A DNA stretch of 64,000 nucleotides from Treponema sp. (GTDB lineage: Bacteria; Spirochaetota; Spirochaetia; Treponematales; Treponemataceae), in assembly GCA_017469785.1 (NCBI GenBank), contig JAFUFU010000008.1:148161-212160 (forward strand). The letters run 5' to 3'. A program made the translations under genes and the position numbers. How positions within the stretch are numbered: position 1 is the stretch's first letter; every line of letters begins with the position of its first letter. This document shows positions 18,916 through 63,917 of the stretch, piece by piece. A model generated the notes under the pieces. The model made no database searches and was not told the DNA's origin. It worked only from the letters and a program-made list of their open reading frames with translations.

Positions 18916-18941
18916 TTGTTTTGCTCCTTTTGGTTTATATT

Positions 18942-19066
18942 GAGGAGGGGAAAGCCTTTCCCTCGCTTCCAAGCAAGTCGTTCCACGAATCGCACCTGCA
19001 AGCAGTGCCGATTCTCTCCGCTTTGTTGCTTGTCCGCTACCCCTTCTGCGGGGATACCCCGCAACG
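18942..19066. repeat. Dispersed 120-bp repeat, copy 1 (between KAP and rhuM genes)
   Basis: Contains GGAAAGcCTTTCC, the block GAATCGCACCTGCAAGCAG, CTCTCCGCTTTGTTGCTTG and the hairpin TGCGGGG/CCCCGCA. The same blocks occur in inverted orientation at about 23625-23745 inside hsdS. This copy supplies the last codons and the TAG stop of the KAP gene. Confidence 0.8.
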
Positions 19067-20938: not shown

Positions 20939-20971
20939 AATACTTCCTCTTATAATGACCATTTTATAATT

Positions 20972-21760: not shown

Positions 21761-21779
21761 TTTATTCCTCCATAATTGT

Positions 21780-22949
21780 TTAATTATATTTTACATTACC
21801 TTTATCAATAACCAATTCACAATAACCTTCATTAAAAGATTTCGAAAATTTTAATCCTTCAAATCGTTGTTCCAATTCCATTCCTGCCAAATCCCCTGCC
21901 AAATCAATTTCAGACTGGATATTATCTTCTGTTATTTCATTTTTTGATTTATGCTTATTTTTTAATCTGATTTGCCCATTAAACTCATTGCTTTCAACAA
22001 ATAATTTTTTTCTTAATTCAAAAGGTAATGTTGCAGGTATTCTTTTATTTATACGATATCTACAAAGTTCCCAAGAGAGAATCATTCTGTGGTGTTTATT
22101 TGTTTTTTCTTTTTCTAAAGACTTATTTAATTGTTGTATAAAAGCTGGTTCTTGAAATTCTGGTTGAGAATTTATATATTCCTGTCTCATTTCATCAGCT
22201 CTCTTGTTTGCATCTAGAATTTGATTATATGAAGAATCTGTATATTTAAAAATGTATGGAGAGTCATCAGATTCTAAGTTTCCCGTTATTGCTTTCCCGT
22301 TTACAACATCAACAGTATATTTATTTATATCTGGCTTTTTTAATGAAAAAACTTTAGAGCCAAAAGAAAAGTCTAACTTGTTTGTTTCTAAAAACTTTAT
22401 ATTAATTCTTTCGTTTTTATAATTTATATTCAGTAAATATAAAGCTCCTAAGGCATGAATAAAATTCTTGACTGTACCATTACAAATAGATGAATATCTA
22501 TCATGCTTCACAGCTTGATATGCTTTTTCCCAATCTGTACCTTGACGTTTGTGAGCTTCTTTTAATGGTTTAAATACTCGATACTGATCATCTGTTAAAT
22601 TAAAAGCTGGGCAAGTAATCAATACAGCTTTTTTTGATGATTTACACTTTATATCTAATTGTTTTAAGCAATCTTCATCAAAAAATAAATCTTTATCACC
22701 TCTTGCTTTTGTTCCACCTAATTCAAAATATAATTCTTTGGAAATAGCTTCAATTTCTACGCAAGTTCTGACAATCAAATCTGCAATATGTGGAGAAAAA
22801 ACTTCAAGTTGTTTAGTATAGCTTTCGCTTTTTAATGAACCTTTACTATATATTAATTTTTCATCCGTGATATAAATATATTTGGATAACTCAAGCAATT
22901 CTTTTTCGAGATTAAGATAAGTTTGCCAAAACATTTCTGCCTTATTCAT
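21780..22949 (-). CDS. Hypothetical 389-aa protein next to hsdS, possibly HEPN-like
   Basis: Not firmly recognised. The segment WEKAYQAVKHDRYSSI (about 140-155) followed by ALGALYLLN resembles helical HEPN/Abi-like arrangements, in which a KHxR-type motif can be catalytic or structural. This is a weak inference. No other motif is seen. The ATG directly abuts the hsdS stop (TAAATG), so it is translationally linked to hsdS and may be part of a defence cassette with the DUF4062 and KAP genes that follow. Confidence 0.55.
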   Translation of the reverse strand: MNKAEMFWQTYLNLEKELLELSKYIYITDEKLIYSKGSLKSESYTKQLEVFSPHIADLIVRTCVEIEAISKELYFELGGTKARGDKDLFFDEDCLKQLDIKCKSSKKAVLITCPAFNLTDDQYRVFKPLKEAHKRQGTDWEKAYQAVKHDRYSSICNGTVKNFIHALGALYLLNINYKNERINIKFLETNKLDFSFGSKVFSLKKPDINKYTVDVVNGKAITGNLESDDSPYIFKYTDSSYNQILDANKRADEMRQEYINSQPEFQEPAFIQQLNKSLEKEKTNKHHRMILSWELCRYRINKRIPATLPFELRKKLFVESNEFNGQIRLKNKHKSKNEITEDNIQSEIDLAGDLAGMELEQRFEGLKFSKSFNEGYCELVIDKGNVKYN

Positions 22950-24383: not shown

Positions 24384-24387
24384 TATG

Positions 24388-25014
24388 TTATTCCTCTTCA
24401 CCCAAGAATTCAGCAAGTGTTTTCGGAATAACACCTTGTCTTATTTTTAGAGCGCAGAATTCTTTATATAAAGCTTTGAGAGCTTTTCGTTTTTCTTTGT
24501 TGCCGCCGGATTTGTAGGCTATTCCGAGGATTGTTTCAAAACCTACTACAATAATATCTTTCAAATCTTCTATTTCGTTGCAGACATCGCAGGCATCTGA
24601 ATCTTTTGAAGAAAAATAAGGAATGGCATAATAGCAGGCATAAGCTAAAGAATGGACTTCGCCTTGATTCTTTGTTTTTGAAAAAGGCGCATACATTAAT
24701 TCATGGTCGTGAATTTCGTTGAATATGCGCATGAATTCCGGATCTTTATCGAACAAATCTTTGTCTGAAACTATTTCAATATTTTTACCAATGTGCTCGT
24801 CTATTATCTTTTTTGTATCTGAATCAAGTTCTTTATACACAACTTCATGCAGTTTTATGTTTTCAAAATAAGAAAGTACGTCATTCATCCAGTTTTTTTC
24901 CATATTATCAAGAGAATATTCTGGATTTGTCTGACGCTTTTCAATTCCCACCATGAAGATACATGTATCAATTATGATAGGCGAATCTTTCTTTATTTCG
25001 GAAAACTTATTCAT
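24388..25014 (-). CDS. PIN-like domain protein, third gene of the XRE/ImmA module
   Basis: 208 residues. The opening PIIIDTCIFM (first acidic residue), a later VYKELD and GEVHSLAYACYYA followed by FSSKDSDACD supply the spaced acidic residues expected of a PIN-fold ribonuclease. The similarity is by pattern only. It overlaps the ImmA/IrrE-type gene by 8 nt and ends 4 nt before hsdS. XRE plus ImmA/IrrE plus PIN-type genes form known toxin-antitoxin-like modules, in which the PIN protein would be the toxin. Confidence 0.65.
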   Translation of the reverse strand: MNKFSEIKKDSPIIIDTCIFMVGIEKRQTNPEYSLDNMEKNWMNDVLSYFENIKLHEVVYKELDSDTKKIIDEHIGKNIEIVSDKDLFDKDPEFMRIFNEIHDHELMYAPFSKTKNQGEVHSLAYACYYAIPYFSSKDSDACDVCNEIEDLKDIIVVGFETILGIAYKSGGNKEKRKALKALYKEFCALKIRQGVIPKTLAEFLGEEE

Positions 25015-25870
25015 CGGTTACCAGACCCTCGTTTATTTTAGATTCTGACAAACCGAATTTCTTTATGATTTCATTCAAGGTAGAATCGTCTAGCCTTCCT
25101 TTGTTATACAAAAGAGGAACTAAATCATAGAGCTGTTCGTTGATATAAACATTCTTGTTTGAATACAACTCCTTTACACGGACATTTTCTTCTGCAAATT
25201 CGAGAAGAATCTTTTTTACTTCATCATAATGTTTAAGTAAATAATCTGTATTTGAAATGTCCTCTTCTTTTAGTCTATATAAAACTGCTTTCAAAGGAAT
25301 GCAATATTTAGCTACTAATACAAAACAGAATGCAATTTGTTTATAAAGAGGAGTTGTAGGAAATTTTCCTTCTGCAAATTGTAAAAATGATTTTAACTCA
25401 TTTCGCAAAGCTTCTTCAGGCAAAAGGAATTCTGCTGCAAATCGATTTGCTTTTATTTCTTCTTTATCATTTTTACTGAATGAACATACAAATGAGTCCA
25501 GAGAACTTTCTATAAAACTGTAAGAATAATGATATAACTCGTGCGCAGCTGCGAATACTTGATTTATAAGAGGTTTGTCAGAATTTATAACGATATATTT
25601 TTTTAATGATTTAGCTGAATATTTTATAATCATTGCATCTAAATCTGATTTCTTGAAATCCTGAAGCTGAAAAACAATATCACCCTTCTGTTCAAGAAAT
25701 GAAAAAATATTAGTACCTATTGGTGTATTTAATCCGTATATGGCCCTTGAATCTCTTGCTCTGTTTTTCAGAAGTTCAATTTCATCTTTTACAAGAAGAT
25801 TTTCATCAAAGGTATAATTGTTTTGAGACAAATTATTAATTATAGAATCGATGTCGTTTTTTGAACTCAT
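25007..25870 (-). CDS. ImmA/IrrE-family metallopeptidase
   Basis: 287 residues. The zinc-binding HELYH motif lies near residue 108 (AAHELYHYSY), with the third ligand region EIKANRFAAEFLLPEE downstream, the standard ImmA/IrrE arrangement. Such enzymes cleave an XRE-type repressor to switch on neighbouring genes. The cognate repressor is encoded just upstream, with an ATGA overlap. The C-terminal 90 residues are an unassigned helical extension that probably contacts the partner. Confidence 0.82.
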   Translation of the reverse strand: MSSKNDIDSIINNLSQNNYTFDENLLVKDEIELLKNRARDSRAIYGLNTPIGTNIFSFLEQKGDIVFQLQDFKKSDLDAMIIKYSAKSLKKYIVINSDKPLINQVFAAAHELYHYSYSFIESSLDSFVCSFSKNDKEEIKANRFAAEFLLPEEALRNELKSFLQFAEGKFPTTPLYKQIAFCFVLVAKYCIPLKAVLYRLKEEDISNTDYLLKHYDEVKKILLEFAEENVRVKELYSNKNVYINEQLYDLVPLLYNKGRLDDSTLNEIIKKFGLSESKINEGLVTDE

Positions 25871-26208
25871 TTATTCACCCTATCATAAAGCGCAAACAGA
25901 TATTCACGCATACCGATTTTTTCAAGAACAGATTCCAGCGCTTTTTTATCTGTTGGCTGAATCTTTCCCATCAGATAAGCCGATGGCATTTCATTTGTTG
26001 CTTCCCAGTATTCTTCTGAACGGCGGCCTGTAATTCTGCAATAATTTGCAAACACTTCTTTTGAAGGGGCCCTTTTTCCCTGTTCAAAAAGTGAAACTAA
26101 AGTGTGGTTGTCTAATTCCAATTTACTAGCAAACTCTGACTGTGTCAGATTATTTGCCTTGCGGAATTCTTTGACATCAGCTGAAAATTTCTGTAAATTA
26201 AAATTCAT
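25867..26208 (-). CDS. XRE-family HTH repressor/antitoxin
   Basis: 113 residues. A classic lambda-repressor-like helix-turn-helix lies at residues 12-60 (FRKANNLTQSEFASKLELDN and the following FEQGKRAPS). It is the first gene of the XRE/ImmA/PIN transcription unit. A 15-bp inverted repeat, GTTACAA/TTGTAAC (26257-26271), lies about 50 nt upstream and is the likely autoregulatory site. Confidence 0.85.
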   Translation of the reverse strand: MNFNLQKFSADVKEFRKANNLTQSEFASKLELDNHTLVSLFEQGKRAPSKEVFANYCRITGRRSEEYWEATNEMPSAYLMGKIQPTDKKALESVLEKIGMREYLFALYDRVNK

Positions 26209-50333: not shown

Positions 50334-51509
50334 CTAATAAGATTCTGTTTCACCAAATGATTTAAGTTTTTCTCTAAGTTTCTTTAGACCTTTATTTTCA
50401 ATTTGTCTTATTCGTTCTCTTGTAACTCCATATAAACAACCGATTTCTTCTAAAGTCAAGGAAATTCCATAACCATAATGTTCAGAATCTTTATAAAGTT
50501 TATTTTCAACTAGTTTTACGGCAGCCTTATAATCAAAATCAGATTCATTCCATAGACCAAACCGAAATTTAATTACGGCTCGTTCTTTTTCTTTTAGAGA
50601 ATCAACTTTTTTGTTCAATTTTTCACAAAAAAGCTTATTGCAGATTTCTTCGTCAAATGTGTTATATGATAAGAAATTACAGTTAGCTTCAGTCATTTCA
50701 TCAAGACTTTCAAATGGAATAAACGCAAGTAAAATCTCTTTTGCGGCATTTTCAGATATGCATAGTAATTTAGCAATTTTACTGATATTGAACTTGTCAA
50801 CAATTAGGCAGTCATTGTCTATTTTCAGATAATCTAAATATTTGTATAATTTGAAATAAGCGTTCAGCGGTTGAGTAGGATAATAAACGAGAGGTCTCTT
50901 TGTTTGCATATTCCGCATGAATACTTGCATTATCCAATAAGATGCATATCCTGAAAATTTCCCATTTTCATCAGGCTTAAAACTATCTGCAGCTTTGCAT
51001 ATCCCCTCATAGGCTAACGAAATCATTTCAGAAATATCATTTTCGTATCGTTCTGAGTATTGCAATGCAAGTTTTAATCCCAAGCGAAGGTGCATTTCAA
51101 TAACTCTTTTTCTTGCAAACTGATTTCCCTCCAACATCTGATATTGAAGCTGTTGCATTTCTCTTCTTTGTGGCGGTACAGTTTTTCGCACATAATCCAC
51201 GAAAAATTTTAGGCTCGAATCCAAAGCTACAATTTTCAAATATATCGGTTCATAATCATTATGTGCCCAATCATCAAACTCCTCGTTTTGTAATTCAGAA
51301 TCTATTTTTTTGACAGCAGGCTTTTTCTCATATAAGATAATTCCATTATCCAACAATTTTGAAGTTAACCGGTCTATATCCTGAATATCTAAATTATACT
51401 TATCGGAACAAGGAAAAATATCATCAAACAATAAATATCCTTGTTCCATCGATAGACTTAAGAGAAAATCAAATGCTTGTAAAAATCCAGATTTATTTTC
51501 TGACACCAT
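50334..51509 (-). CDS. RpoD-like sigma-70 factor, last full gene of the sulphur-defence operon
   Basis: 391 residues. The N-terminus (GYLLFDDIFPCSDKYNLD, LLDNGIILYE) resembles region 1.1 of primary sigma factors. Region 2 is LAYEGICKAADSFKPDENG and FSGYASYWIMQVF; region 3 follows. Region 4 is LTLEEIGCLYGVTRERIRQI, with the RpoD-type RERIRQIE helix. Residues 100-135 are unusual. Its ATG overlaps the preceding stop by 1 nt (TAATG) with no ribosome site, so it is translationally coupled to the defence genes. It may direct RNA polymerase to this operon or to modified DNA; that is inference. Confidence 0.88.
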   Translation of the reverse strand: MVSENKSGFLQAFDFLLSLSMEQGYLLFDDIFPCSDKYNLDIQDIDRLTSKLLDNGIILYEKKPAVKKIDSELQNEEFDDWAHNDYEPIYLKIVALDSSLKFFVDYVRKTVPPQRREMQQLQYQMLEGNQFARKRVIEMHLRLGLKLALQYSERYENDISEMISLAYEGICKAADSFKPDENGKFSGYASYWIMQVFMRNMQTKRPLVYYPTQPLNAYFKLYKYLDYLKIDNDCLIVDKFNISKIAKLLCISENAAKEILLAFIPFESLDEMTEANCNFLSYNTFDEEICNKLFCEKLNKKVDSLKEKERAVIKFRFGLWNESDFDYKAAVKLVENKLYKDSEHYGYGISLTLEEIGCLYGVTRERIRQIENKGLKKLREKLKSFGETESY

Positions 51510-52036
51510 TATTTTAGCAATGAAATAAGCTGGTCCTTGTCAATGTTATCAATGAATAAATGTGATATGTCGTCAGAAAATATCGTAAGATTCTCAATAA
51601 AATTATCTGGCTTAGAAGCTCCCTGTATCAGTTTTTCATATAAAACTTCAATTCCACCTCTAGCATATGAATTAAATAACTCTAAGTCGTTTTCATCCTT
51701 TCCGAAATTTCTGAATGCCTTATCTATGCGCTTTTTCTCATCAGATTCATGTTCTTCATCCAACAGCAATATCAACTGCATATTAAAAGTAAGATTATCC
51801 TGTGATGTAATCATTTGGTCTTTTAATATATGGGCATCAAACAACTTTCCACTATTATCTTTTGTTGTCATATCCTTGTCGGCTTTTCTCTGAAATAAAA
51901 AACCGACGAGTGGAGCCTGTACATAAACATCGATATTTCTGTTAAAAAGTTTCGCACCAGTTTCACCAAAATTATTTGAAAGCATATTCATATATTGACC
52001 GTGCTTTCCAGTAATTCTTATTTCCTTGTCGAACAT
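51509..52036 (-). CDS. 175-aa protein following the DndD-like gene
   Basis: Not named. A soluble protein beginning EIRITGKHGQYMNML, with RNIDVYVQAPLVGFLFQRKA in the first third and a helical C-terminal half. I recall similar small proteins next to DndD-type ATPases, but cannot confirm. It does not look like the DndE family, which is about 110 residues. A TAGGAGGAAG site, formed by the end of the ATPase gene, lies 9 nt before the ATG. Confidence 0.6.
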   Translation of the reverse strand: MFDKEIRITGKHGQYMNMLSNNFGETGAKLFNRNIDVYVQAPLVGFLFQRKADKDMTTKDNSGKLFDAHILKDQMITSQDNLTFNMQLILLLDEEHESDEKKRIDKAFRNFGKDENDLELFNSYARGGIEVLYEKLIQGASKPDNFIENLTIFSDDISHLFIDNIDKDQLISLLK

Positions 52037-52048
52037 ATTTACTTCCTC

Positions 52049-54049
52049 CTATTCCAAAACCGTTTCAGTCTCTGTTATTTTTCTGAAACGATGGCTTTTT
52101 CCGATTTTTTCTGACATATATTCTTTTGCCAAATCACCATCCGTATCTTTAATAAATATAATGACTTGTTCGGTAAGATGCGGAATAGTTTCACAAACAG
52201 ATTTTATATGTTTTCTGTCAAATTTTGACAGCGGAGCATCCATAACAAGCGGGTAAATATCCGAAGATAATTCCTGCTTGTCTCTGTCAGTAGAATTTCT
52301 GTTTTCTTTGGACATTTTTATCATGCTGGTTATAAATGAGAAAATAACTGAAATGCTTTGACCTTCCGATGTCTCAACTTTGTCATTGATATTGTTAGCA
52401 AGAACATCAATTTGATACTTTTCATTTATATGAACAGATAGATCTCCGCTATTGATTTTAGAGAAAATCTGGTTCATATTGTCCTCAAGCCTAGTTCTCA
52501 CTTCTTTTTCACTTGAAGCATACTTCTGGGAAAGTAAATCATAGATTTTTTTTGCATAAGCCTTGTAAATCTCAATTTGTCTGTTTGTTGAATTTTTTAA
52601 GGCTAGTTCCTTCCGCTTTGTTTCAGCGCTTTCTCTTTCTTGTTTTTTCGCTCCGATTTTCTGGTCTATTTCACGCCGTTCTTGATTGTTTTTGCTTACA
52701 GTATGCTCACAATCAGCAATTTTTGAAGAAATCGTTCTTACGATTTCCTCTACATCTGTTCCGTTAAGTTTTGGGTCAATGTGATTATGAATATAATCTT
52801 CTGCATTTGTTATTTCATCATCACATTCACTTATTTTGGCAAGTTTTTCATCTCTAACCGAAATAAAGTCATTTTCCGAGTTCAGTCTGCTTCGTGCAGT
52901 TGTTTTAAAATCATTTACCATATTGCCAATTGACTTTGGAGGCAAAACATCAAACCACTTGTTCAATTCTTCTAGTTCCTTAGAATTCTCTTGTATGCAA
53001 GTTCCACAAAGGCATCGTTTATGGTCAATGAGATATTGAATCGTTTTATCCGTGATATTTGGAATATCACTTCCAGAAAGTTTGAGTTTAACAAGGATGT
53101 CATAGGCTGGCTTTATTAAGCCAACTGATAAAAATAATGAAATCTGTTTGTTGAATTCCCGGCAGATATCTTTTTGAAATTCTGTCTTCCTTGCTGCCTG
53201 TTCTTTTATCCTTTTTTCGAGCTTCTCTTTTTCTTCCTGCAGATCCTTACTTGATTGATAGTCTTTCAATTCTTCCTGTTTTTTGGATTTCAAATCATCG
53301 GCTTTTCTGTTTTCATCCTCTATCTCTGCAATGCGATTTTCCATCTTTTCGATTTCGGAATCACAGTCGTTGATAATATCAGTCTGTTTTTTTACTTCCA
53401 AATCACTAGACGAATCATATTGCTGATTGTACTTTCCGATTACAGAATTTTTCGGTCCGCCATTTAAATGTTCCAATGCTTTCTGCATCGCCTTCAAGCC
53501 TAAAAGCCCTTCAACAGCTTCTGCAAATTCCGCGGTCTTCTTGTACCCGGAAATATCTTTTCCCATTGCTTCAATTCTTTCTCCGTCAAAGAAGAAATAT
53601 CTTGAAAGTTCTTTTGGCAAAATGGAATTGATAGTTGCATCTCGTTTTGTTGCTTCAATAAATTTTGTGTTTCCAGCACTATCTTTTTGCTGAATTTCAA
53701 GAACAGAATTTCCTTCTGCTTTAACAGAATTTGAATTATCTTTTTTGAAATTCTGAGTTCGAGTAATCGTATACTGGTTATCGCCGTGCTTCAGTTTTAA
53801 TTGAACATAAACAGTCTCTGGCGTAGCAGGAGTCATTGCATTTGCAACATCTTTATTCCAGACAATTGAATCCTTAAAATAAGTAATTCCATACAGACAC
53901 CAGAAAAAGCTTTGCAAAAATGTTGTCTTTCCGCTACCATTTTCACCAATTATTATTGTGACATTCTTTCCTTGAATATCTTGAGCAAAATCTAGTGAAG
54001 CATCCTTATATTGCCTGAAATTGTGCAATTTTATTGATTCGAGTAACAT
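52049..54049 (-). CDS. DndD-like SMC/Rad50-type ATPase with zinc-hook
   Basis: 666 residues. Walker A IGENGSGKTT at 34-43 is preceded by the N-terminal LHNFRQYKDASLDF. Long coiled coils flank a CLCGTC hook near residue 346. The C-terminus has the signature region (SEGQSISVIFSF), and Walker B/D-loop is VMDAPLSKFDRKH near 604. This is the arrangement of DndD of the DNA-phosphorothioation system and relatives. Its start lies within the 57-aa gene (19-nt overlap). It would act as the DNA-scanning motor of the system. Confidence 0.85.
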   Translation of the reverse strand: MLLESIKLHNFRQYKDASLDFAQDIQGKNVTIIIGENGSGKTTFLQSFFWCLYGITYFKDSIVWNKDVANAMTPATPETVYVQLKLKHGDNQYTITRTQNFKKDNSNSVKAEGNSVLEIQQKDSAGNTKFIEATKRDATINSILPKELSRYFFFDGERIEAMGKDISGYKKTAEFAEAVEGLLGLKAMQKALEHLNGGPKNSVIGKYNQQYDSSSDLEVKKQTDIINDCDSEIEKMENRIAEIEDENRKADDLKSKKQEELKDYQSSKDLQEEKEKLEKRIKEQAARKTEFQKDICREFNKQISLFLSVGLIKPAYDILVKLKLSGSDIPNITDKTIQYLIDHKRCLCGTCIQENSKELEELNKWFDVLPPKSIGNMVNDFKTTARSRLNSENDFISVRDEKLAKISECDDEITNAEDYIHNHIDPKLNGTDVEEIVRTISSKIADCEHTVSKNNQERREIDQKIGAKKQERESAETKRKELALKNSTNRQIEIYKAYAKKIYDLLSQKYASSEKEVRTRLEDNMNQIFSKINSGDLSVHINEKYQIDVLANNINDKVETSEGQSISVIFSFITSMIKMSKENRNSTDRDKQELSSDIYPLVMDAPLSKFDRKHIKSVCETIPHLTEQVIIFIKDTDGDLAKEYMSEKIGKSHRFRKITETETVLE

Positions 54050-54204
54050 TTTACAGCCTCCTCTATTGATTTCTGAATTTTCTCAATCATCTGAATATCA
54101 TTAGAATTGTGAGTTTTCAGATTTTGATTTTCTAAAAACACAATCTTACTCATCAAAACATTAAGTTTTGATTCATCGATTTCAATTTCATTTTGTTCAT
54201 TCAT
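54031..54204 (-). CDS. Small 57-aa coiled-coil protein between helicase and DndD-like genes
   Basis: ATG at 54204 overlaps the helicase stop (ATGAATGA), and the stop at 54031 lies inside the ATPase gene. The product begins MNEQNEIEIDESKLNVLM and continues with a heptad-like helix (IQMIEKIQKSIEEAV). Overlap on both sides argues that it is translated, as in phage and defence operons. Function unknown. Confidence 0.65.
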   Translation of the reverse strand: MNEQNEIEIDESKLNVLMSKIVFLENQNLKTHNSNDIQMIEKIQKSIEEAVKCYSNQ

Positions 54205-56431
54205 TTATACTTTCCTCCTGTGAATTATTTTCAAACAAGTCTTTATCTGATATTTGATAAACGGTCTGTATTTCGTCAATCAAATTCAAACTCGTCATCT
54301 CATTCATTGATATGTGAGAGAATTCCTTTATTCTACGAAGTTCATTTTTTACCAATGTTGAATCACCTTGCAGTTCTTCTTTTGTGTAGTTTTGTACCGA
54401 TGCAAGTTCTCTTGGTAAAGTTACAAAATCATATATTTCTGCATAATCTTTTCCATCAAACTTTCGTAAAACACGACCACGCCGCTGAATATATTCTTTT
54501 GGATTTGTAGTGCTAGCCAAAATAAATGCCGTTTTGATGGAAGGAATATTTACACCTTCATCGAGACACTTGATTGCTACAATTGCTTGAATCTTTTCTT
54601 CTTTAAATTTTTGAGTAATGATTTTTCGAGTTTCAATATCTTCTTCTGAGGTAAATTTTGAAACTGTCATTCCCATTTCGTTTCCAAGAATTTTTGTGAC
54701 AGCGGTTATTTGTCTTTCTCCAACTTCTGATTTATCAAAATCATTCAAAAGTTCATCTTTATCATTTTCAGGAATAACAGTTGTTGCTCCACAATAAACA
54801 AGAAGATTATTTTGATTTTTGTACGCTTTAATTTGTTCCCGCAATGCGTCAAGTTTGTTTTGAGCACCAGCTACAATCCTAGAACGTTTTATCGCAAGCA
54901 TTTCTCCATAAGAATCCAGAACCATCTTTCCAGACTTATTTTTCCGCAAGTGTTGACTCATTTCCCTTGAAATATGCTTGTATTCATCAAGTTCGTCTTC
55001 AGTAAGATAGACAAGAACAGGAAAATATTTGTATCGCGTTAATTTTTTTTCATCGATAGCCCTTTCCAAATCATAGTGAATGCATACATTCTCAAAATAG
55101 CCATGAAGAAATGCTGTGCCCTCTTCATCATTATGTCGGTCTAGGGTTGCCGAAAGTGCTAGACGATATATAAATCTTGAATCAAGATACTTCTTAAAAT
55201 TTCCAGCCCCAGCATTATGAGCTTCATCTATCATTAATAAGATATCTGCTGAAATATTATTTATTTGCTCTTGAACAAATTTACTCTTGAAAGTTACGTT
55301 TGTTATTACAAGACAAGAAAATCTCTTATCTTTTGGACGCAATTTCATATCTAAGATAGCTTTCTTTAATCTTGTTTTCCAATCTTTCTGTGGCGAACTC
55401 GAATATCCAATAATCGGTTGGATATTGAACTTTACAATATCTTCTACCCACTGTTCTACCAAATGCTGATAAGGACAAACGATAATTGCAAAGAGTTTTT
55501 CTGGAAATCTATCAGAAAACAATCTTGTTAAAGCCGACAAGCCCGTTAGAGTTTTTCCTGTTCCCGTTGCCATATCAAAAATGCCACGGTAATTTTGTTT
55601 TTGCCAGTTTTCTATTGCCTCATTTTGATAGTCGTGAAGCTGTAACCATTCTGGCATTGTCGGAATATTAGGTGGAAGAGCTTTTTCGATTTCAACATCT
55701 TCATCAGAATTAATAGAAAAGGATTTTTCAATTAATTCACTTTTCGAAAAGCTTTTATTCTTATACTTTTGTATAAAGGCTGTTGGCAGTTCAGGAAAGT
55801 CAAAAACTTCCAGTGCATTTTGCTTGTTCTGCCACATTGCATTAAAATCATCTTCACATATTTTTACCCGTTCCGCGTCTCCTTCATACCAGCCACAGAA
55901 AACCTGAAATGACTCAAAGTTTTCAGAAATAGCCGTTTCAGACTCATTCATGCTTCCCGAAATTGCAACTTTATTTCCATCGTCATCAACAAAAAGACCA
56001 ATCTTTTCATGGTACATGCTAAATTCAGGATTCTTTGTGACAGCAATTTTTATTTCTAAGATTCCCATCTCAATTAGATTTGCTAGAATATTTAATCTGT
56101 TTTGCTCGTTGATTGTTTTGGGCAGCGTCATCTCGCGTGCAAAAGCCCTAAGATAAATATTTTCTCTTGATTCATAGCCCTTTTTGATTGCAGCAACATC
56201 ATCTTCGTTTAATCGAGGCGAGGTTATTAACTGCATTTTTCCATCATTCTTCACAAGAGACAAAATTCCGTAAGAGATTTCTAAAAAACTTGTAGAAGAA
56301 AAAAAGCCTACCGCTCTTCTGTAGAGTTTTGTGCAAGGCAAAACCTGATTATAAAATTCACGAGGTTTAGCGTAAGCATCTCCTGAGCGGTAACGGGTTT
56401 GGAATGTTATGTCTATAAATCTTTCTTTCAT
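54197..56431 (-). CDS. PLD-nuclease/SF2 helicase fusion
   Basis: 744 residues from ATG at 56431 (a TTG two codons earlier has better spacing to AGGAGG). The N-terminal domain (about 25-200) is phospholipase D-like: MYHEKIGLFVDDDGNK (HxK) and SGSMNESETA. Then a DEAD/DEAH-type helicase: MATGTGKTLTG (about 288), MIDEAHNAG (about 400), ALSATLDRH, YIQRRGRVLRK (motif VI). Such PLD-SF2 proteins are restriction effectors in several defence systems. Probably the DNA-cleaving arm here. The 3' end overlaps the 57-aa gene. Confidence 0.88.
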   Translation of the reverse strand: MKERFIDITFQTRYRSGDAYAKPREFYNQVLPCTKLYRRAVGFFSSTSFLEISYGILSLVKNDGKMQLITSPRLNEDDVAAIKKGYESRENIYLRAFAREMTLPKTINEQNRLNILANLIEMGILEIKIAVTKNPEFSMYHEKIGLFVDDDGNKVAISGSMNESETAISENFESFQVFCGWYEGDAERVKICEDDFNAMWQNKQNALEVFDFPELPTAFIQKYKNKSFSKSELIEKSFSINSDEDVEIEKALPPNIPTMPEWLQLHDYQNEAIENWQKQNYRGIFDMATGTGKTLTGLSALTRLFSDRFPEKLFAIIVCPYQHLVEQWVEDIVKFNIQPIIGYSSSPQKDWKTRLKKAILDMKLRPKDKRFSCLVITNVTFKSKFVQEQINNISADILLMIDEAHNAGAGNFKKYLDSRFIYRLALSATLDRHNDEEGTAFLHGYFENVCIHYDLERAIDEKKLTRYKYFPVLVYLTEDELDEYKHISREMSQHLRKNKSGKMVLDSYGEMLAIKRSRIVAGAQNKLDALREQIKAYKNQNNLLVYCGATTVIPENDKDELLNDFDKSEVGERQITAVTKILGNEMGMTVSKFTSEEDIETRKIITQKFKEEKIQAIVAIKCLDEGVNIPSIKTAFILASTTNPKEYIQRRGRVLRKFDGKDYAEIYDFVTLPRELASVQNYTKEELQGDSTLVKNELRRIKEFSHISMNEMTSLNLIDEIQTVYQISDKDLFENNSQEESINE

Positions 56432-56446
56432 TTTCAAATTTTCCTC

Positions 56447-57715
56447 CTACAAATTCCCCTTCAAAAACTCCATCGCCTCTTCCAGCTCCGCAAAATCTTC
56501 CTCGCCGGTAAAATAGCTGGTGCTAAACCTCACCGTGCCCGCGGGGAAAGTCCCCAGCGTTTTGTGGGCAAGCGGAGCACACTGTAAGCCAGACCGCACG
56601 GCGATATTCTGCTCGGAAAAAACGCTTGCCGCCGTGTCGCTTGGAAGCCCTTCTATCAAAACCGACACAATGCCTACATATTGAGATTTTGAATTCTGTC
56701 TGCCGACAGGCATGGTGAGTTCAGAATGCCCCATCCCACCATGATTTTGCGTTAGCAAAATCGAATCCGTGTGGCAATTTCCAACAACCTTCACAAAATC
56801 GTACTTTCTCAAAATCTCAAGCAGGCATTTTCTGTGCTCCTGTTCCTTCATCCAGATTGATTCAATGCCAGTTTCCAAAATCCAGCCGGTTGAGGCATAT
56901 AAACCTGCGACTCCAGAGATATTGAGCGTTCCCATTTCGTATCGCTGGGGGATTTCTTTTGGCATGTCCTGATTTGCGCTTTCATAGCCTGTTCCTCCGA
57001 ACAAAACTGGAGATAAATCAAAACCAGCTTTCATGGCAAAGCCGCTTATTCCTGTAGGTCCGTAAAGAGTTTTATGTCCGGCAAAAACTGCAAAATCGAT
57101 TGTTTCAAGCCCCACATTCAAATCAACCAGGCCTGCCGTCTGAGCCATGTCGAGCACAGTCAGGCAGTCAAACTTTTTTGCAAGCAGGCACAGTTTTTCC
57201 ACAGGCTGAATTAGGCCTGTTACATTACTTGCATGGCTTATAACGAGTAAGTCTGGCTCATCCTTTTTGAAAAGGTTTTCTATTTCTGTGAAGTCGTAAG
57301 AAAGATTTTCCAGAATAGGAAGAACCTTTACTTTTATCATTCCCATCAATTCAAAATGATGAAGAACTCTTGTCACCGCATTGTGCTCAAAAGGGCTGAT
57401 GTAAACGGTGGCTCGACGATTCGCCAGGCTCTGTTCACCGCTGCGGTTGGTGAGCGTAGCCGAACCAATCACTCCCTGCAAAATCATATTGAGGGCAATA
57501 GTGGCCGTGGGTGTAAAAATAATCTGCTTATTCTGGCAGTGTAAAATCTTCTGAAGGCGTCCTCTTGTGTCAGAAATCAACTTGCCTGCCGTTAGCGAAA
57601 GTTCATGATTTCCTCTTCCGGCATTTCCGCCATGTTCCCGATAAAATTTGTCCATAAAGTCGTAGACACAATCAGGCTTTGGGAAGGTGGTCGCCGCATT
57701 ATCAAAATATGCCAT
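56447..57715 (-). CDS. Cysteine desulfurase (IscS/DndA/SufS-type) with two repeat-derived inserts
   Basis: 422 residues. PLP lysine in FAGHKTLYGPTG (about 210), SHASNVTGLIQP, ESANQDMPKEIPQRYEMGT and the catalytic cysteine in RSGLQCAPLAH (about 376). The enzyme takes sulphur from cysteine, as DndA/IscS does for DNA phosphorothioation. Two stretches (about 82-103 and 311-344) do not fit the family and are encoded by palindromic repeats. Its start overlaps the ATPase stop by one base. The inserts lie before the substrate histidine region and before the VSVLIEG strand. Confidence 0.88.
   Translation of the reverse strand: MAYFDNAATTFPKPDCVYDFMDKFYREHGGNAGRGNHELSLTAGKLISDTRGRLQKILHCQNKQIIFTPTATIALNMILQGVIGSATLTNRSGEQSLANRRATVYISPFEHNAVTRVLHHFELMGMIKVKVLPILENLSYDFTEIENLFKKDEPDLLVISHASNVTGLIQPVEKLCLLAKKFDCLTVLDMAQTAGLVDLNVGLETIDFAVFAGHKTLYGPTGISGFAMKAGFDLSPVLFGGTGYESANQDMPKEIPQRYEMGTLNISGVAGLYASTGWILETGIESIWMKEQEHRKCLLEILRKYDFVKVVGNCHTDSILLTQNHGGMGHSELTMPVGRQNSKSQYVGIVSVLIEGLPSDTAASVFSEQNIAVRSGLQCAPLAHKTLGTFPAGTVRFSTSYFTGEEDFAELEEAMEFLKGNL
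56683..56782. repeat. Palindromic element inserted in frame in the desulfurase gene (insert 2)
   Basis: Includes GATTTTGC-gtta-GCAAAATC and a GAATCCGTGTGGCAA end that match the ABC-ATPase insert in reverse orientation, plus GAATTCTG...CAGAAT and CTGTCTGCCGACAG hairpins. The frame stays open. Confidence 0.8.
57407..57470. repeat. Palindromic element inserted in frame in the desulfurase gene (insert 1)
   Basis: GGTGGCTCGACG...CGTAGCCGAACCA with an inner TTCACC/GGTGA hairpin. Encodes about 21 residues (GSATLTNRSGEQSLANRR) between NMILQG and VYISPFEHN of the desulfurase. Confidence 0.75.
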
Positions 57716-60700
57716 CAGTCCTCACCTCCGCATAAAGTTTCAAGCACACGCATCAGAACCTGCCTTTTTTCAGCCTGATTCAATGACTGTCCCATCGTGT
57801 CCAACGCATCGGTTACTTTGTTGAACAGAAGACGGGCGCGGGGACTCTCATTTACTTTTTCAAAATATTTTGTCATCACCTTTCCGTCTTCCTTTGGAAA
57901 AGAAACCGCATAAGATTTTGCAGATTTGGAATTTTCGCCAAGTGTAGTTTTTTCTGAATCAGATTGAAGAGAAAAGTTTTCCGCACTTTTTTTCCATGTC
58001 TTTATCTGCGAAATAAATTTTTCTTTTGTGCTTTCTTCCCAATCTTCAAGCCGCAATCCAGTTGCGGCAAAAGCTAAATCAGGAATCAAATCTTCATCTG
58101 ATGCATAGTTCTTTTTCAGAGCTGCAAAAAGTCTTTCTGTTCCGTCTGTAAAAAGATGATTAAGGGAAGATTCTGGCAGAGAAGACAGCCAGAGAGAATA
58201 AGAACTTTGGCTGAAAATCTCTTTGACTTCAAAGGCAAGCTCATCACTTAAATTCCCTAGCAGACCGTCATAAGTTTCTTTTATAATTTTGATTTTACGG
58301 GCAGTCTCAAGGGAACAGACTCCTTCTGATAATGCGTCAGGAATGGATGTAAAAAGAAGTTCCTGAGCGCCTTTTTCATTTTTGATTGCCTTAATAATAG
58401 AAGCAAATGGTGTTCTTGCCTCGCGGGAAAATTTTGGAAGAGAAAGATACCATTCGTGAATTGCAGAGGCAATTTCTTCTGCACTCTCACCTTTTGATGA
58501 AAAAATGTTTTTAAGTTCCGCAAGGTATGCTTTTTTATTTTCATCTAAATTAAATCTCAAAATGCTGAAGTTTTCAGGATGTTCGTTTATTTCAGAAAGT
58601 GTGTCCGCATTCAAAGATGTTTGCTGTTGGTCTGAATACAAAACCAGCTGATTTTTAATTCGTCCCAAAACAAGAGCTATATAAATCGGAATAATTCCCT
58701 TGCGAACTGCTATGCCATATTTTGCGGATGTAAGTTTTTCGTAAATCAAGGAGAATGAAACTTTTTCCTGTGCTGCCATTTCTGCAAACTCTTTAATCGT
58801 CTGTAACATTGGAGCCAACAGATATTTATCATCGGCTAAATCAAAATTCAGCTTTGCAATTTCGCTTTTCCCTCCACCATTTTCTAGCAGTCCTACATGA
58901 ATAAGAGTGCTCCGCATGATTGCTACATCCTGCCCGCTTCCTGTTAGCCCCAGATTTTTTTCAATTGGATTTCTAAGAAGACCAGCCAGAATTTTCCTTC
59001 GGCTATTAAAAGCCATTTGGGTAATTTCATTTTTATTAATCGCTTCATTGTTTATGACTGGTGTTTTTGAAAAATTCTTATCACATATTTTTGAAAGCAG
59101 TTCTGTAAGCTCTGTCCTGCGTTTAAGAGCAATTTCCTTTCCTGCATAGAAATACAGGCAGGCATTGTTTTCTGGATGCGTGTATTTTTTTATGTAAGTT
59201 GAAACAACTTCAAAAAGATCTTCCTGTATAACGCCGTATTCAGACATAAGAATTTCATCGCCCGCAGCTTTTTTACAAAGCTCATTTACGCTGGAAAGTT
59301 CTGCAGCGGCTTTTTCCACGGAAGAAAACTTTTTTAAGGCAATGCAGACAATTTGTTTATTTTTTGAAGTTATAGTTTTACACAACTGTTTTGCTTCTTC
59401 TATCTGATTTTTTGATTTACAAAGGAGTGCTATAATTTTTCCGTCAGAATTTATGTCTATCTGAATGTCCTTTCCTTGACTGCCATATTCCACAAATTCA
59501 AAATCAAAAAAGCGAGTCATCTCTTTTTTATCGTTGTAACGGTATGGATAAAAATATTTTTCCGTGTTAGTTTCATTTAACACTTTGCTCAAAAGAAAAC
59601 TCTTTTTCTCCCGCTCAATTTCGTCGTGTATCGCTTTTTTAATATCAATTCCGCTTGTTTCTTTTAGCTTTAGATAAGAATTACTTTGGCGAAGATAAAT
59701 CACAAATTCTTTTTCAATTAAGTTTTTTAAGGCTTCTTCAATCTGTTCTTTTGAATATGAAAAACTGTAGATTTTTACAATCTCTTCGGTCAAAGGCTTG
59801 AGTTTTTCAAACTGTGCAAGAATATATATAAGTGAAATTGTCTTTATGATTTTCTTTTCCAGCTCACCTTCATTTTTATTTTCTGCATCAAGTTTTTCTA
59901 AAATTGCTCTGGTAAGACGATAGGTTTCAAAAAGTTCTCCATTGTAGATTTCCTTTTTTAAAAGAGGCTCAAAATAATCAAATATCAAATCGGGAGTTAC
60001 AAGGGAAAAATCTTTATCGTTAAATCCTTTCAAAAATTGTGAAAGGGTATAAGCTGAATCAGCAGACAAAAATGTAAAAAGAGTACGCTCGTTCTGGGCA
60101 ATTCGCTCGGAAAGTCGTGGAAGAATGAATGTGCTTACAGGATGCAAAGGAAAGGTTGTAGTAAAAAGATTTTCTATTCCGCTATTTTCCTTGACTTCTG
60201 AAAAAAGTTCGTGCTTCTTGTAATTATCTTCAAGGGCATCAAAATCGCTTTTGTGAGAAATTTTGTAATCGTTCCATAGTTTTTTATCTTTTTGAATGAC
60301 TGTAGAAATAATTTCGTATACTTGAGAGAAATTATTGTTCAGCAGGATATGTTCAAATCTCTCGCTAATTCCCCGCCAGCCATCAGTTTTCTGTTTAGAA
60401 AGTTTATCAATATAATTTGCAATTTCCTTATGAGAAATCAAAAGCAGATGAAGCTGATTTTCTCCGGAGCGAGAGGCCTTTTCTGCAAAGTCCTGTAGCA
60501 TTTTTGTGTCGCTTACACTTGCCGTTTCTATGTTTGATTCAAGATATTTTGAAAACTCATCATATACTACATAAAGACCATCATACAACTTTTGGCGGCG
60601 CAGTTCCTTTGCAACACTTTCATACATTTCAACCACATCAAAGCTCAAAAATGGATTAAAGCTGCTTCCCGATGTCAGCTCAGGATATATTTTTTCAAAG

Positions 60701-61290
60701 TCCCTGTAAGTTTCAAGATTAAAATCCTTAAGGCGGGAAATTACAATTTCAGAAGGACAATCTGCTTTTTCTTCAAAAGTCCTTAAAGTTTCAGGATATT
60801 TTTCCTTCCAATTCTCCAGTGTTCTGATTGCCGCCAGGTAATTACTCTCTGGCATAAAGTCGGTAAGATTATTTTCGCTCAAAGTATGTTTCAATGAAAG
60901 TAAAAAGCTTTGAGTTAAACTTGCCGTACTTCCTGTAATCAAAACTGGAAGCAGTTTCTTCCCGCTTTCATAATAATTTTTTACAAGCTGTCCCAGTCTT
61001 TTATTTTCAGCAAGCTTTTTATTCAGATGAACAAAGTCTGAAATTGGTTCATGATGTTTTAATATAGAAAGGATTGTAAGAACAATGTGACTTTTTCCTT
61101 TTCCATAAGAGCCTATGAGAATCCGCGCTCTTTTTGTGCTGTTTTCCTGAGTGCTCAAAAGAATTTCTTCAAGCAAGTCCAGACTGGATTTTGTGGGAAT
61201 AAAGCCTTTCAGCTTTTCTGTATTTTCAAGGTCATAGGCAATGTTCACCGAATATTGAAAGTTGCCTGCTGTATGTATCATCTTACTCAT
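57715..61290 (-). CDS. Large P-loop ATPase of BrxC/PglY-like type
   Basis: 1191 residues. Walker A IGSYGKGKSHIVL (about 59-71), acidic Walker-B-like VVYDEFSKYLES (about 243-254) and a third motif LLLISHKEIANYID. This GSYGKGKSH form occurs in the ATPases of BREX-type systems. The C-terminal 700 residues are helical and unassigned. ATGA overlap with DUF4007 upstream and 1-nt overlap with the desulfurase downstream. Likely a core component of the system. Confidence 0.75.
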   Translation of the reverse strand: MSKMIHTAGNFQYSVNIAYDLENTEKLKGFIPTKSSLDLLEEILLSTQENSTKRARILIGSYGKGKSHIVLTILSILKHHEPISDFVHLNKKLAENKRLGQLVKNYYESGKKLLPVLITGSTASLTQSFLLSLKHTLSENNLTDFMPESNYLAAIRTLENWKEKYPETLRTFEEKADCPSEIVISRLKDFNLETYRDFEKIYPELTSGSSFNPFLSFDVVEMYESVAKELRRQKLYDGLYVVYDEFSKYLESNIETASVSDTKMLQDFAEKASRSGENQLHLLLISHKEIANYIDKLSKQKTDGWRGISERFEHILLNNNFSQVYEIISTVIQKDKKLWNDYKISHKSDFDALEDNYKKHELFSEVKENSGIENLFTTTFPLHPVSTFILPRLSERIAQNERTLFTFLSADSAYTLSQFLKGFNDKDFSLVTPDLIFDYFEPLLKKEIYNGELFETYRLTRAILEKLDAENKNEGELEKKIIKTISLIYILAQFEKLKPLTEEIVKIYSFSYSKEQIEEALKNLIEKEFVIYLRQSNSYLKLKETSGIDIKKAIHDEIEREKKSFLLSKVLNETNTEKYFYPYRYNDKKEMTRFFDFEFVEYGSQGKDIQIDINSDGKIIALLCKSKNQIEEAKQLCKTITSKNKQIVCIALKKFSSVEKAAAELSSVNELCKKAAGDEILMSEYGVIQEDLFEVVSTYIKKYTHPENNACLYFYAGKEIALKRRTELTELLSKICDKNFSKTPVINNEAINKNEITQMAFNSRRKILAGLLRNPIEKNLGLTGSGQDVAIMRSTLIHVGLLENGGGKSEIAKLNFDLADDKYLLAPMLQTIKEFAEMAAQEKVSFSLIYEKLTSAKYGIAVRKGIIPIYIALVLGRIKNQLVLYSDQQQTSLNADTLSEINEHPENFSILRFNLDENKKAYLAELKNIFSSKGESAEEIASAIHEWYLSLPKFSREARTPFASIIKAIKNEKGAQELLFTSIPDALSEGVCSLETARKIKIIKETYDGLLGNLSDELAFEVKEIFSQSSYSLWLSSLPESSLNHLFTDGTERLFAALKKNYASDEDLIPDLAFAATGLRLEDWEESTKEKFISQIKTWKKSAENFSLQSDSEKTTLGENSKSAKSYAVSFPKEDGKVMTKYFEKVNESPRARLLFNKVTDALDTMGQSLNQAEKRQVLMRVLETLCGGED

Positions 61291-62186
61291 TTTGTGCTTC
61301 CATTTAGTGATTCATAAAACTTTTTTGCATAATCCAGGAAAGTCAATTCTGGATGAGCACGGCGGATTACATCCAAACCTGCTGTTCGGATGATTTTTAC
61401 TTCTCCTGTTTTTTCAGCTTCCCGTAAAATTTCAAGCATGGTAATTGTGTCAAGGTTAAAAGTTCGTCCTATGTTTTTACCGGAAGTCAAAAGGTCGTTC
61501 AGTTTGATTTCTGCAGATCCTAGTGCCCTGTCTGCAATCACCGCTAAAATGATAAAAGGATTAAAGAGCGAGCTTTGTGGGATTGATTTTCTGTATATTC
61601 CCCTTTTTGAATCTAAAATCGTTAAAAGCCCGAGTTCTGTAAAAGGGCAGGAAATATTATTTTCTGGAGAAAAAGCTTCGCTTCCTTTTTTTGAAAAATA
61701 TGTATTTATTATGCAGGAAAAATCATCACTTAAGGTGCGGTCTGTGCCGGATGCCTTTTCTCCAGTGGAGTTCATTCTGATATAATTCTTTATGGAAGTG
61801 AGAAAATCTTCCTGAGTAAACTCAAAAAGGTTAAATTCATTGAAAAAGAAATACCAGCTTGTTGCGTTTTCTTCATTTGATGAAAGCTTGTAATGAAGAA
61901 GCAGCAGGGTACCGCTTTCTTCCATGTAGCGATCGCTTTCATAAACAAGTTTTCCAAGAGGAGTAAAAGTCTGAATCCTCTTTCCGCTTGTATTTTCCTC
62001 GGTCAGCCCGGTTGCCAAAAGCCAGTAGCGCAAAGATTTTACCATGTTGCTTCCAATGCCAAGAGTATCCATAGGATTGTTTTCCCTGTCGATAAAAACC
62101 ATACCGTCCGTCTGCTTTACATATTTCATGCCTTTAGACAGCCAGCCTTTTCGTATAAAAAAAGTCTCATGTGCCCTGAATTTCAT
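61287..62186 (-). CDS. DUF4007-domain protein
   Basis: 299 residues. The opening FRAHETFFIRKGWLSKGMKY and GIGSNMVKSLRYWLLATGL are diagnostic of DUF4007, a family known next to DndC-like PAPS-reductase genes. The C-terminal part contains an HTH-like helical region. ATG at 62186 is preferred over GTG at 62198 because it begins the family match right after the upstream stop (62188). Function unknown, presumably DNA-binding or adaptor. Confidence 0.88.
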   Translation of the reverse strand: MKFRAHETFFIRKGWLSKGMKYVKQTDGMVFIDRENNPMDTLGIGSNMVKSLRYWLLATGLTEENTSGKRIQTFTPLGKLVYESDRYMEESGTLLLLHYKLSSNEENATSWYFFFNEFNLFEFTQEDFLTSIKNYIRMNSTGEKASGTDRTLSDDFSCIINTYFSKKGSEAFSPENNISCPFTELGLLTILDSKRGIYRKSIPQSSLFNPFIILAVIADRALGSAEIKLNDLLTSGKNIGRTFNLDTITMLEILREAEKTGEVKIIRTAGLDVIRRAHPELTFLDYAKKFYESLNGSTK

Positions 62187-62187
62187 T

Positions 62188-63810
62188 TTATATTCCACCC
62201 TTTGTTCTTAAATATTTTGCCATGAGGCAGCCGTTTGCCAGGACTGCCTGATTTACACACATCTTGCAGTGAACGCATTTTTCTTCATCTATATGGTAGC
62301 CCTCTGTCGTAATGCTGATTGCGCCTGCCTTACACACGCTCTCGCATTTGAGGCATTTTCTGCACGCATTAAATTTTCTGATTTGATATGCAATCTGCCG
62401 CTGCAAGTCCTCGTGGTCAGCCACATTCATAGTTTTGACTTTTACCGCGTATTCAAATCCGTCTACCGTAAATGGCTGAATGGAAATAATCGGGACATTC
62501 GTGCGAACATCAAGAACCAGAACCTCATGCAAAAGCTTTCGCCCCAGCTCCCGGCTCACCTTTCCGAAAGGAACGAAAAAATTTACAAGTTCATCGCTAA
62601 AGGGGTGAACAAGCGCATAATTTTTTGCGTGTTCTTCTGCCGTACAATTCGTAAAACGGATTTTTACATCATTGCTGGAAGCAAGTCCGTTTCCGCCCTG
62701 ACGGGCTTTCCAGGCTCCTGAATCCACATAAACTTCAGGGTCAGGCTTTCCAATCTTTTTTGCAAAATCTATCAGAAAGGCACGCCACTTTTCGCTTCGT
62801 TCTTTCATGTATATGCGGCTTAAAAATTGCGCCCGCTGATTGTTATTAGGACAGCACCAGCAGCCAACTCTGTCATAACCCAATCGGTAGGCATCGTTAA
62901 AATCAACTTTTTCCCCCAGAAGATAAAGCCACACGTCTATGTCCTTCCAGTCGATTATGGGGCTTGCCACAGTCTGCTTCTGGATTTTTACCGATTCTTT
63001 GTCGTCCTCCACACGATTGTATTTTGAACGGCTTACACTTTCGGCATGACGGATTCCGTAGAATGTGAGAATTTGCTGATTTCTATAAAGGGCGTTCAAA
63101 GTGCGGGTAATGGGACCGGTCTTGAACATGGAGCAGCACCACCTCATCATGCGGGCTGGAGGACCTATGTCGTCACAAACCTTCATAAAATCCTGCTCGT
63201 CGTTTATGGCTGTCTCAAAAATCGCAAAAGGATGATTTCGCCGGAAGCGTTCTGCATATTCAAGCGTGGTCGGAAATTCCAATGTGGTGTTTCCGAAAAT
63301 GTGAACAAAGCTGGGATTCGCAAGAGCTTTTGTTACGATATCTGCCGTTACGCTGGAATCTTTTCCTCCACTAAAAGAAAGAACAATATTTTCTGTAGGA
63401 AATTTTGCCGCCTCTTCTTTTATAAAGCGATGAGCTTCTTCTATAAGAGCATTAAGACGGGGCCTGTTTGCCAGAATGAACCGTTCAATATGAGCTTCAA
63501 AAAGACTGGTGATTTCGTCCTTTTCGTTCAGAGCTTTTAATTCTTCAAGCCGCTTTGAAAGAGCATTTGTGTCCGCCTGTAAAAAAGTCTTTGAAGAAAT
63601 TGATTTTGCTTTTCCTCCAATGTAGTAGCGGCTGTTTTCGCACCATACTGATTTTTTTGCGAAACTTAAAGGCTCAGCATCAAGTAAAAGTTCGAGCAGA
63701 AGCCGCTCCTGGGGAAAAACAGGCCTCAAGTCCGTAGAAAGATAGGCTGTTTCTCCACCGCATAAAGGACAAGAAGATTTTCCGCTTACTTCGTCAATAT
63801 CAGAAAGCAA
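62188..63810 (-). CDS. DndC-like PAPS-reductase/ATP-pyrophosphatase with C-terminal ferredoxin domain
   Basis: 540 residues from a TTG start. PP-loop SFSGGKDSSVT (about 142) and MRWCCSMFKTGPI, YGIRHAES and WCCPNNNQR are typical PAPS-reductase/DndC features. The last 60 residues bear two 4Fe-4S sites (CRKCLKCESVCK and CVHCKMCVNQA). The N-terminus has CPLCGG, half of a zinc ribbon. The other half, FYCTHC, lies upstream in the same frame, which stays open to 63912 without ATG, GTG or TTG. So the true start is probably further upstream, perhaps ATT at 63849. It would activate or transfer sulphur from the desulfurase. Confidence 0.88.
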   Translation of the reverse strand: MLSDIDEVSGKSSCPLCGGETAYLSTDLRPVFPQERLLLELLLDAEPLSFAKKSVWCENSRYYIGGKAKSISSKTFLQADTNALSKRLEELKALNEKDEITSLFEAHIERFILANRPRLNALIEEAHRFIKEEAAKFPTENIVLSFSGGKDSSVTADIVTKALANPSFVHIFGNTTLEFPTTLEYAERFRRNHPFAIFETAINDEQDFMKVCDDIGPPARMMRWCCSMFKTGPITRTLNALYRNQQILTFYGIRHAESVSRSKYNRVEDDKESVKIQKQTVASPIIDWKDIDVWLYLLGEKVDFNDAYRLGYDRVGCWCCPNNNQRAQFLSRIYMKERSEKWRAFLIDFAKKIGKPDPEVYVDSGAWKARQGGNGLASSNDVKIRFTNCTAEEHAKNYALVHPFSDELVNFFVPFGKVSRELGRKLLHEVLVLDVRTNVPIISIQPFTVDGFEYAVKVKTMNVADHEDLQRQIAYQIRKFNACRKCLKCESVCKAGAISITTEGYHIDEEKCVHCKMCVNQAVLANGCLMAKYLRTKGGI

Positions 63811-63917
63811 GGTGATTACGGGAATGTCACAATGGGTGCAGTAGAAAATATGTGCAGAAAAAGGAAGGTTTTTTGTGCTGGAAAATCTGCTTGATTTTTT
63901 AGAGGAAAGGGCTTACT

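Follow-up and report, generated by a model that had tools for sequence, protein, structure and literature searches.

SspABCD systems with SspE or SspFGH place SspB, SspC, the PAPS-reductase SspD and a cysteine desulfurase beside an effector module (PMC8092258), DndCDEA-PbeABCD systems carry PbeA, B, C and D in this order beside phosphorothioate (PT) genes with a cysteine desulfurase (PMC6459918, PMC10853773), and type 4 BREX possesses a BrxP-like reductase, a DUF4007 protein, a BrxC-like ATPase and a desulfurase (PMC12839542). Likenesses to each of these meet in an operon of Treponema sp. located in a stretch of 64,000 nucleotides (the window; GenBank assembly GCA_017469785.1, contig JAFUFU010000008.1). 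It departs from the first in having a BrxP-like SspD with a ferredoxin region, in having Pbe as its effector and in the lack of SspE in the window; from the second in that its writer is Ssp, not Dnd, and a sigma-like gene follows PbeD; and from the third in that PglZ and BrxL were not found in the genome. The hybrid nature of this operon and its recurrence are well supported, and the families of its proteins point to PT chemistry and a role in defence. On balance we think it likely that the locus encodes a phage defence that is composite and based on PT, and that in this genus is probably subject to phase variation.

Nine co-directional open reading frames (ORFs) on the minus strand, all intact, extend over 50334-63810 and are spaced as an operon, with overlaps of 1-19 nt and gaps of 9-12 nt (Table 1). 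The first-pass annotation had outlined the same nine genes; the right edge it gave, 63849, falls on an ATT codon, and its overlaps of 1-23 nt and gaps of 1-15 nt do not agree with those measured. G+C per 2 kb is 0.32-0.44 in the operon region as against 0.41-0.49 at 26-48 kb of the window. As the right edge of the window is also the end of the contig (212160 bases), in an assembly of 63 contigs that is 97% complete, DNA to the right of the window is unreadable. PADLOC, Pfam and NCBIfam profiles name seven of the nine ORFs, namely SspD (BrxP-like), SspB, SspC, desulfurase, PbeA, PbeC and a sigma-70-like protein, and thereby bear out the domains proposed earlier (PAPS reductase, DUF4007, BrxC-like, desulfurase, PLD-SF2, DndD-like and sigma); the 57-aa and 175-aa ORFs have no PADLOC match.

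In PADLOC the large ATPase scores 437.6 bits against SspC models and 166 against BrxC, the DUF4007 protein matches SspB models, and the desulfurase is a near tie between SspA (123.7 bits) and DndA (119). The reductase scores 268.8 bits with BrxP, 45.3 with DndC and 43.6 with SspD. SspB, SspC and SspD are thus encoded together with a desulfurase, and by their profile matches these four proteins are the Ssp set and not DndC combined with type 4 BREX. The earlier view of a hybrid that is expected to modify DNA with sulphur and bears a PLD-helicase survives, with its parts reassigned to Ssp and Pbe. A variant of type 4 BREX would account for the best score of SspD, which is with BrxP, and for a BrxP, DUF4007 protein, BrxC-like ATPase and desulfurase standing together as in such systems (PMC12839542). 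It is nevertheless highly improbable, given the margin of SspC over BrxC and the occurrence of the BrxP arrangement in a subset of SspD proteins too (PMC12839542); moreover, no match to PglZ or BrxL, both noted earlier as missing from the visible part, was obtained in any of the 63 contigs, and the type 4 BREX identity was rejected on this account. A Dnd-type writer was likewise rejected, on the low DndC score of the reductase beside that of BrxP and the CxC hook of the DndD-like ATPase.

The effector half begins with PbeA, in which an HKD nuclease domain is joined to an SF2 helicase; the HKD residues are kept in all eight PbeA sequences, and the match to NCBIfam dnd_restrict_1 is 494 bits, under the 600-bit cut-off. 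The hook residues C346 and C348 of PbeC are conserved in at least 90% of 15 aligned rows and lacking in the single DndD row aligned. PbeB has no profile in the libraries used and is named by its position and by homologues that lie equally between PbeA and PbeC in relatives. The 175-aa protein has a predicted fold that matches DndE, as expected of PbeD, and a profile comparison with one DndE detected nothing; as it stands in the place of PbeD and has such a fold, the earlier statement that DndE is absent is not correct in that form. The possibility that the 57-aa and 175-aa ORFs are spurious was rejected on the homologues of the former and the predicted fold of the latter. Judged by profiles, position and predicted structure, the PLD-helicase, the 57-aa protein, the DndD-like ATPase and the 175-aa protein are PbeABCD, a complete described effector module.

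The last gene encodes a protein with sigma region 2 (Pfam, E 1.5e-5) and region 4 (E 1e-13) that resembles SigA chains. Such a gene stands last in five of the seven Ssp-Pbe loci of the genus, the window included, and sigma-region-4 or sigma-annotated genes adjoin Pbe in 4 of 13 loci examined outside the genus, none of them an Ssp hybrid (L057 and L062 by Pfam, L094 and L095 by annotation). No target promoter was found for the sigma-like protein, which is probably a regulator or DNA-binding accessory. Two of these four outside proteins combine region 4 with a match resembling the RNA polymerase alpha-CTD.

The pairing of Ssp with Pbe recurs within the genus and outside it. In a scan of 392 genomes of the phylum DUF4007 matches were present in 16 and PbeA matches in 14, six of the latter above 100 bits. 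Among 200 genomes of the genus, SspD was found in 15, PbeA in 8 (E up to 1e-30) and both in 7 (Fisher 2.2e-8, with relatedness ignored), and all seven hold the two at one place: the window genome, G157, G273, G351, G153, G422 and G444, the last with no SspA recognised. G313, with Ssp and Pbe on separate contigs, was left out of this count, and G429 has PbeA on a 7.2-kb contig with no SspD match. The other SspD loci comprise G346 and G191 with a helicase-GHKL-PLD effector set, G469 with a three-gene set behind Ssp that is SspFGH-like, G439, which is decayed, and G404, G496, G517 and G518, which are cut by contig ends; the SspFGH-like label was assigned to G335 and G469 by size and order and not by a profile. 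At least four further Ssp-Pbe loci were found outside the genus, two of them on alphaproteobacterial plasmids and two on human-faecal scaffolds: a Sphingomonadaceae plasmid has sspABCD-pbeABCD, a Rhizobium plasmid has sspABCD facing the pbe set, and scaffolds L060 and L061 (MT835506.1, MT835493.1), deposited as unverified phage, have SspDBCA-PbeABCD. These scaffolds may be bacterial; their genes include an FtsX permease, a GHKL kinase, PcfJ and a flavin oxidoreductase. As the plasmid searches covered the best 40 of 77 DUF4007 records and the best 60 of 81 SspD records, further such loci may exist. A general scan of genome contigs returned one 4.6-kb Treponema contig, and a scan of viral contigs with PbeA returned no relative.

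Comparison of these loci indicates that modules have been swapped, in that similar Ssp genes are followed by dissimilar effector sets. Between G157 and G153 the four Ssp proteins share 81-98% identity, and PbeA, C and D share 24-32%; the Ssp proteins of the window and G191 are 58-85% identical, yet G191 has a different effector set. Such exchange would also be expected if Ssp and Pbe were two independent systems adjacent by chance in a defence island, and Pbe is indeed found with Dnd, with methylases or alone, both in earlier work (PMC10853773) and among our loci. Against this are the single gapless operon of the window, the presence of both in 7 of the 200 genomes as against 15 and 8 singly (the Fisher value ignoring shared ancestry) and the three different gene orders among 11 loci, so that we regard chance adjacency as quite unlikely. 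The alternative effector set behind the Ssp core, seen at three loci of which two are distinct, consists of an SF2 helicase, a GHKL ATPase (weak MzaB match) and a PLD protein (weak DrmC match). A GmrSD_N (DUF262) protein of 715-731 aa in or beside three Ssp-Pbe loci (G351, G153 and L060) is perhaps, by analogy, a second effector resembling SspE.

In invertible promoters and phase-variable restriction-modification systems, inverted repeats flank a segment from which one or another gene is started, and a serine recombinase lies nearby. A comparable arrangement stands at the 5' end of SspD in seven distinct relatives, where two inverted arms flank a cassette of 134-966 nt, core to core; it differs from those systems in that the cassette also encodes the first protein residues and that its target is a PT operon. 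Arm pairs match at 20-23 of 24 nt, compared with at most 18-21 in shuffled copies (2-nt blocks moved, 40 per locus) and 17-19 in four loci without the feature. When the DNA between the cores is turned in silico, exactly one orientation supplies the SspD ATG at all seven loci. As found, G351, G157 and G404 are on, and G153, G191 (with Treponema saccharophilum), G496 and G518 are off; for G157 and G153 the ATG was read from the translation, owing to an upstream Cys. G469 was left out of this test because its arms differ in their core; in the orientation found it has no ATG. The Ssp locus of cultured T. saccharophilum, on plasmid pTS1, carries the cassette, and as its locus DNA is the same as that of G191 the two were counted once.

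Two genome pairs have homologous cassettes in opposite orientations, with the crossovers falling in the arms. The cassettes of G157 (on) and G153 (off) align in the minus orientation (702 nt at 86%, 105 nt at 90%) and their SspD sides in the plus orientation (247 nt, 89%); those of G404 (on) and G496 (off) align in minus over 895 nt at 93.7%, with flanks in plus (508 nt at 90.7% and 245 nt at 79.6%). With the start codon placed just inside the arm, SspD of G404 (MQQEDSTKNVRFSAH) and the HNH protein of G496 (MQQEDSTKNVRLNEQ) have their first residues in common: a single start is used by two genes. The gene opposing SspD on the far side of the cassette is an HNH gene in six of the seven relatives and an SF2 helicase in G157. 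These features make a switch well supported in the relatives and suggest active flipping within a population. It could be supposed instead that the repeats mark the insertion of a mobile cassette, whose position and orientation changed rarely in evolution and which does not flip within populations. Cargo between the arms, in the form of a BrnT/BrnA toxin-antitoxin pair in G157 and G153 (L037:16445-17042 by Pfam, L040:16372-16936 by similarity) and a 191-aa ORF in G404 and G496, would suit this account, as would the lack of mixed orientations in what are assemblies only. It explains less readily that crossovers fall within the arms, that the opposing gene shares a start codon positioned just inside the arm, and that a PF00239 serine recombinase lies beside the HNH gene in three of seven loci (G404, G496 and G518), and we consider it unlikely.

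Several observations nonetheless count against a general switch. The arms of G351 (20 matches) do not exceed their own shuffles (21), consensus promoters read outward from only three of the seven cassettes, and in the flanks retrieved for the four loci other than G404, G496 and G518 no recombinase could be recognised. Furthermore, 5 of the 14 genus SspD loci with a readable 5' end have an ATG of their own (the SspD 5' end of G444 is absent from its assembly): in G346, G273, G517 and the decayed G439 the protein starts with a complete MWC or MYC N-terminus and in G422 with another ATG, and in the four of these loci that were scored no repeats exceed the shuffles.

In the window the SspD frame is open for 574 codons, to 63912, and contains no ATG, GTG or TTG ahead of the zinc ribbon: an ATT at 63849 stands just before the ribbon, and the first such codon, the TTG at 63810, lies behind the first Cys pair. 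The window has a single copy of the arm motif, abutting the gene, none of 100 shuffles has one, and the DNA at this place aligns with both arms in the relatives; relatives carrying the same arm have the same start-less SspD frame, for which the other orientation gives the start. One arm is seen here, as opposed to two in the seven relatives, but as the contig ends ~120 nt beyond it the partner may merely be missing from the assembly. These likenesses suggest that the switch extends to the window copy, which would have been caught in the start-less (off) orientation. G444 has the PbeC closest to that of the window (91%). The contig of the window and the HNH contig of G444 (L098:6677-6805), which ends inside its cassette reading into the HNH gene, both stop ~120-130 nt inside the cassette, perhaps because mixed orientations broke the assemblies.

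The window copy could, however, not be off at all: it may be decaying, or SspD may start at ATT 63849, or at TTG 63810 with loss of the first Cys pair, and the arm would then be a relic. The single arm in the assembly speaks for this, as do the failure to find in the genome a partner arm within 2-3 mismatches, except for one 2-mismatch site elsewhere on contig C2, or an HNH gene or second cassette end, the position of the ATT just ahead of the zinc ribbon and the visible decay of G439. The intactness of all nine reading frames, the start-less frames of relatives that share the arm and the proximity of the contig end argue the other way, and leave this reading less likely than not. The genome encodes a recombinase (52-62% identical) on contig C50; the surrounding 20 kb that were read contain no site resembling an arm. 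A promoter scan of the window did no better than shuffles.

The families of these proteins suggest how such a system might operate. SspA would free sulphur from cysteine, SspD would activate and transfer it, and SspB and SspC would find and open the site, placing PT marks on host DNA. SspABCD modules are characterised by single-stranded PT in a CCA context, and PbeABCD modules by antiviral activity that depends on PT. PbeC with PbeD may then scan DNA and license PbeA, the nuclease-helicase, to act on DNA that lacks marks, PbeB being a possible tuner of the effector half. Depending on its orientation, the cassette would lend its leader and start codon to SspD or to the opposing gene, usually HNH, and the flipping is presumably due to a serine recombinase. 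Pbe has been found to stop virus replication without cutting viral DNA (PMC6459918), which speaks against nuclease action; PMC10853773 argues for cleavage by Pbe.

The opposing HNH protein has an N-terminal predicted fold that weakly matches sulphur-binding domains (SBD), followed by an HNH domain, and so resembles the SBD-HNH PT-dependent nucleases SprMcrA and EcoWI, of which less than 3.6% are near dnd (PMC7461809, PMC6224610). It differs from these enzymes in the weakness of the match, in that the pocket residues were not located, in an HNH domain closest to that of Cas9 and in its position beside a PT writer; Pfam and PDB sequence searches matched only the HNH half. An invariant W-N-L at residues 80-82 of the T. 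saccharophilum protein may, by eye and with no computed alignment, match F-W-A-L of ScoMcrA, with Ile/Cys in place of the key Pro, which speaks against PT binding. It is conceivable, and we put it forward tentatively as a bold inference, that one invertible segment makes PT-DNA writing and cutting mutually exclusive, with marking and Pbe directed against unmarked DNA in the on state and the SBD-fold HNH protein against marked DNA in the off state. The position of the HNH gene on the SspD strand in G469 and G439 and the presence of HNH in 19 of the 185 genomes of the genus that lack SspD weigh against such exclusion.

Table 1. Coordinates of the Ssp-Pbe operon and adjoining features in the window, and of associated genes at other loci
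Feature	Position	Strand	Basis or context
SspD, BrxP-like PAPS-reductase with ferredoxin region	62188..63810	-	profiles; open frame to 63912
SspB (DUF4007)	61287..62198	-	profiles
SspC ATPase, 1191 aa	57715..61290	-	profiles
SspA-like cysteine desulfurase	56447..57715	-	profiles, SspA/DndA near tie; name from context
PbeA, HKD (PLD) domain + SF2 helicase	54197..56437	-	profiles, HKD residues
PbeB, 57 aa	54031..54204	-	position and homologues in relatives
PbeC, DndD-like ABC ATPase with CxC hook	52049..54049	-	profiles, hook residues
PbeD, 175 aa, DndE-like predicted fold	51509..52036	-	position, predicted structure
Sigma-70-like protein, regions 2 + 4, weak region 1.1	50334..51509	-	Pfam
Repeat arm abutting SspD	63851..63875	-	motif; partner arm not found in assembly
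Presumed invertible cassette end, cut by contig end	63876..64000	.	cassette nature inferred from relatives
Sigma-like proteins beside Pbe	L062:6885-9938, L057:9776-11974, L094:2753-6001, L095:12603-13916		Dnd, methylase or solitary contexts
Alternative effector set behind Ssp core	L041:4341-8796, L042:5172-9751, L055:19794-24226		three loci, two distinct
GmrSD_N (DUF262) protein	L038:10719-12914, L040:6292-8484, L060:19829-21976		

Other genes accompany individual Ssp loci. An ORF6N-domain gene (297 aa) lies between SspD and SspB in G346 (L041:14672-15565), and G439 has a 297-aa ORF at the equal place; in G422 a SIR2-like protein (1016 aa or more) comes after the Pbe genes on the same strand (L086:1-3051). 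Elsewhere in the window, G+C is low over 16001-26000, at 0.27-0.34, and minus-strand ORFs follow one another there from 16491 to 26208.

Each half of the operon matches a described system, while the union of the two in one operon was not found in print: the open-access literature searched (titles and starts of abstracts) yielded neither an Ssp-Pbe union nor an inversion switch of a PT system, and neither a sigma gene in such an operon nor an invertible 5' start, though a paper on gut BREX type 4 may contain a description. The locus thus combines a writer and an effector that are each known, in a pairing for which no description was found; a sigma-like gene accompanies them and, in relatives, so does an invertible start. 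By our arithmetic on PMC8092258, 2247 of 2678 sspBCD loci have no adjacent SspE or SspFGH, and for some of these loci Pbe is a candidate effector. An orientation-dependent start codon would give a PT system an inversion switch, and this is relevant to the way in which PT writers and the nucleases that depend on PT are kept apart. If writing and cutting are indeed mutually exclusive, a population would be a mixture of cells that define self in opposite ways, and phages that had been marked in cells of the on state would encounter cutters in those of the off state.

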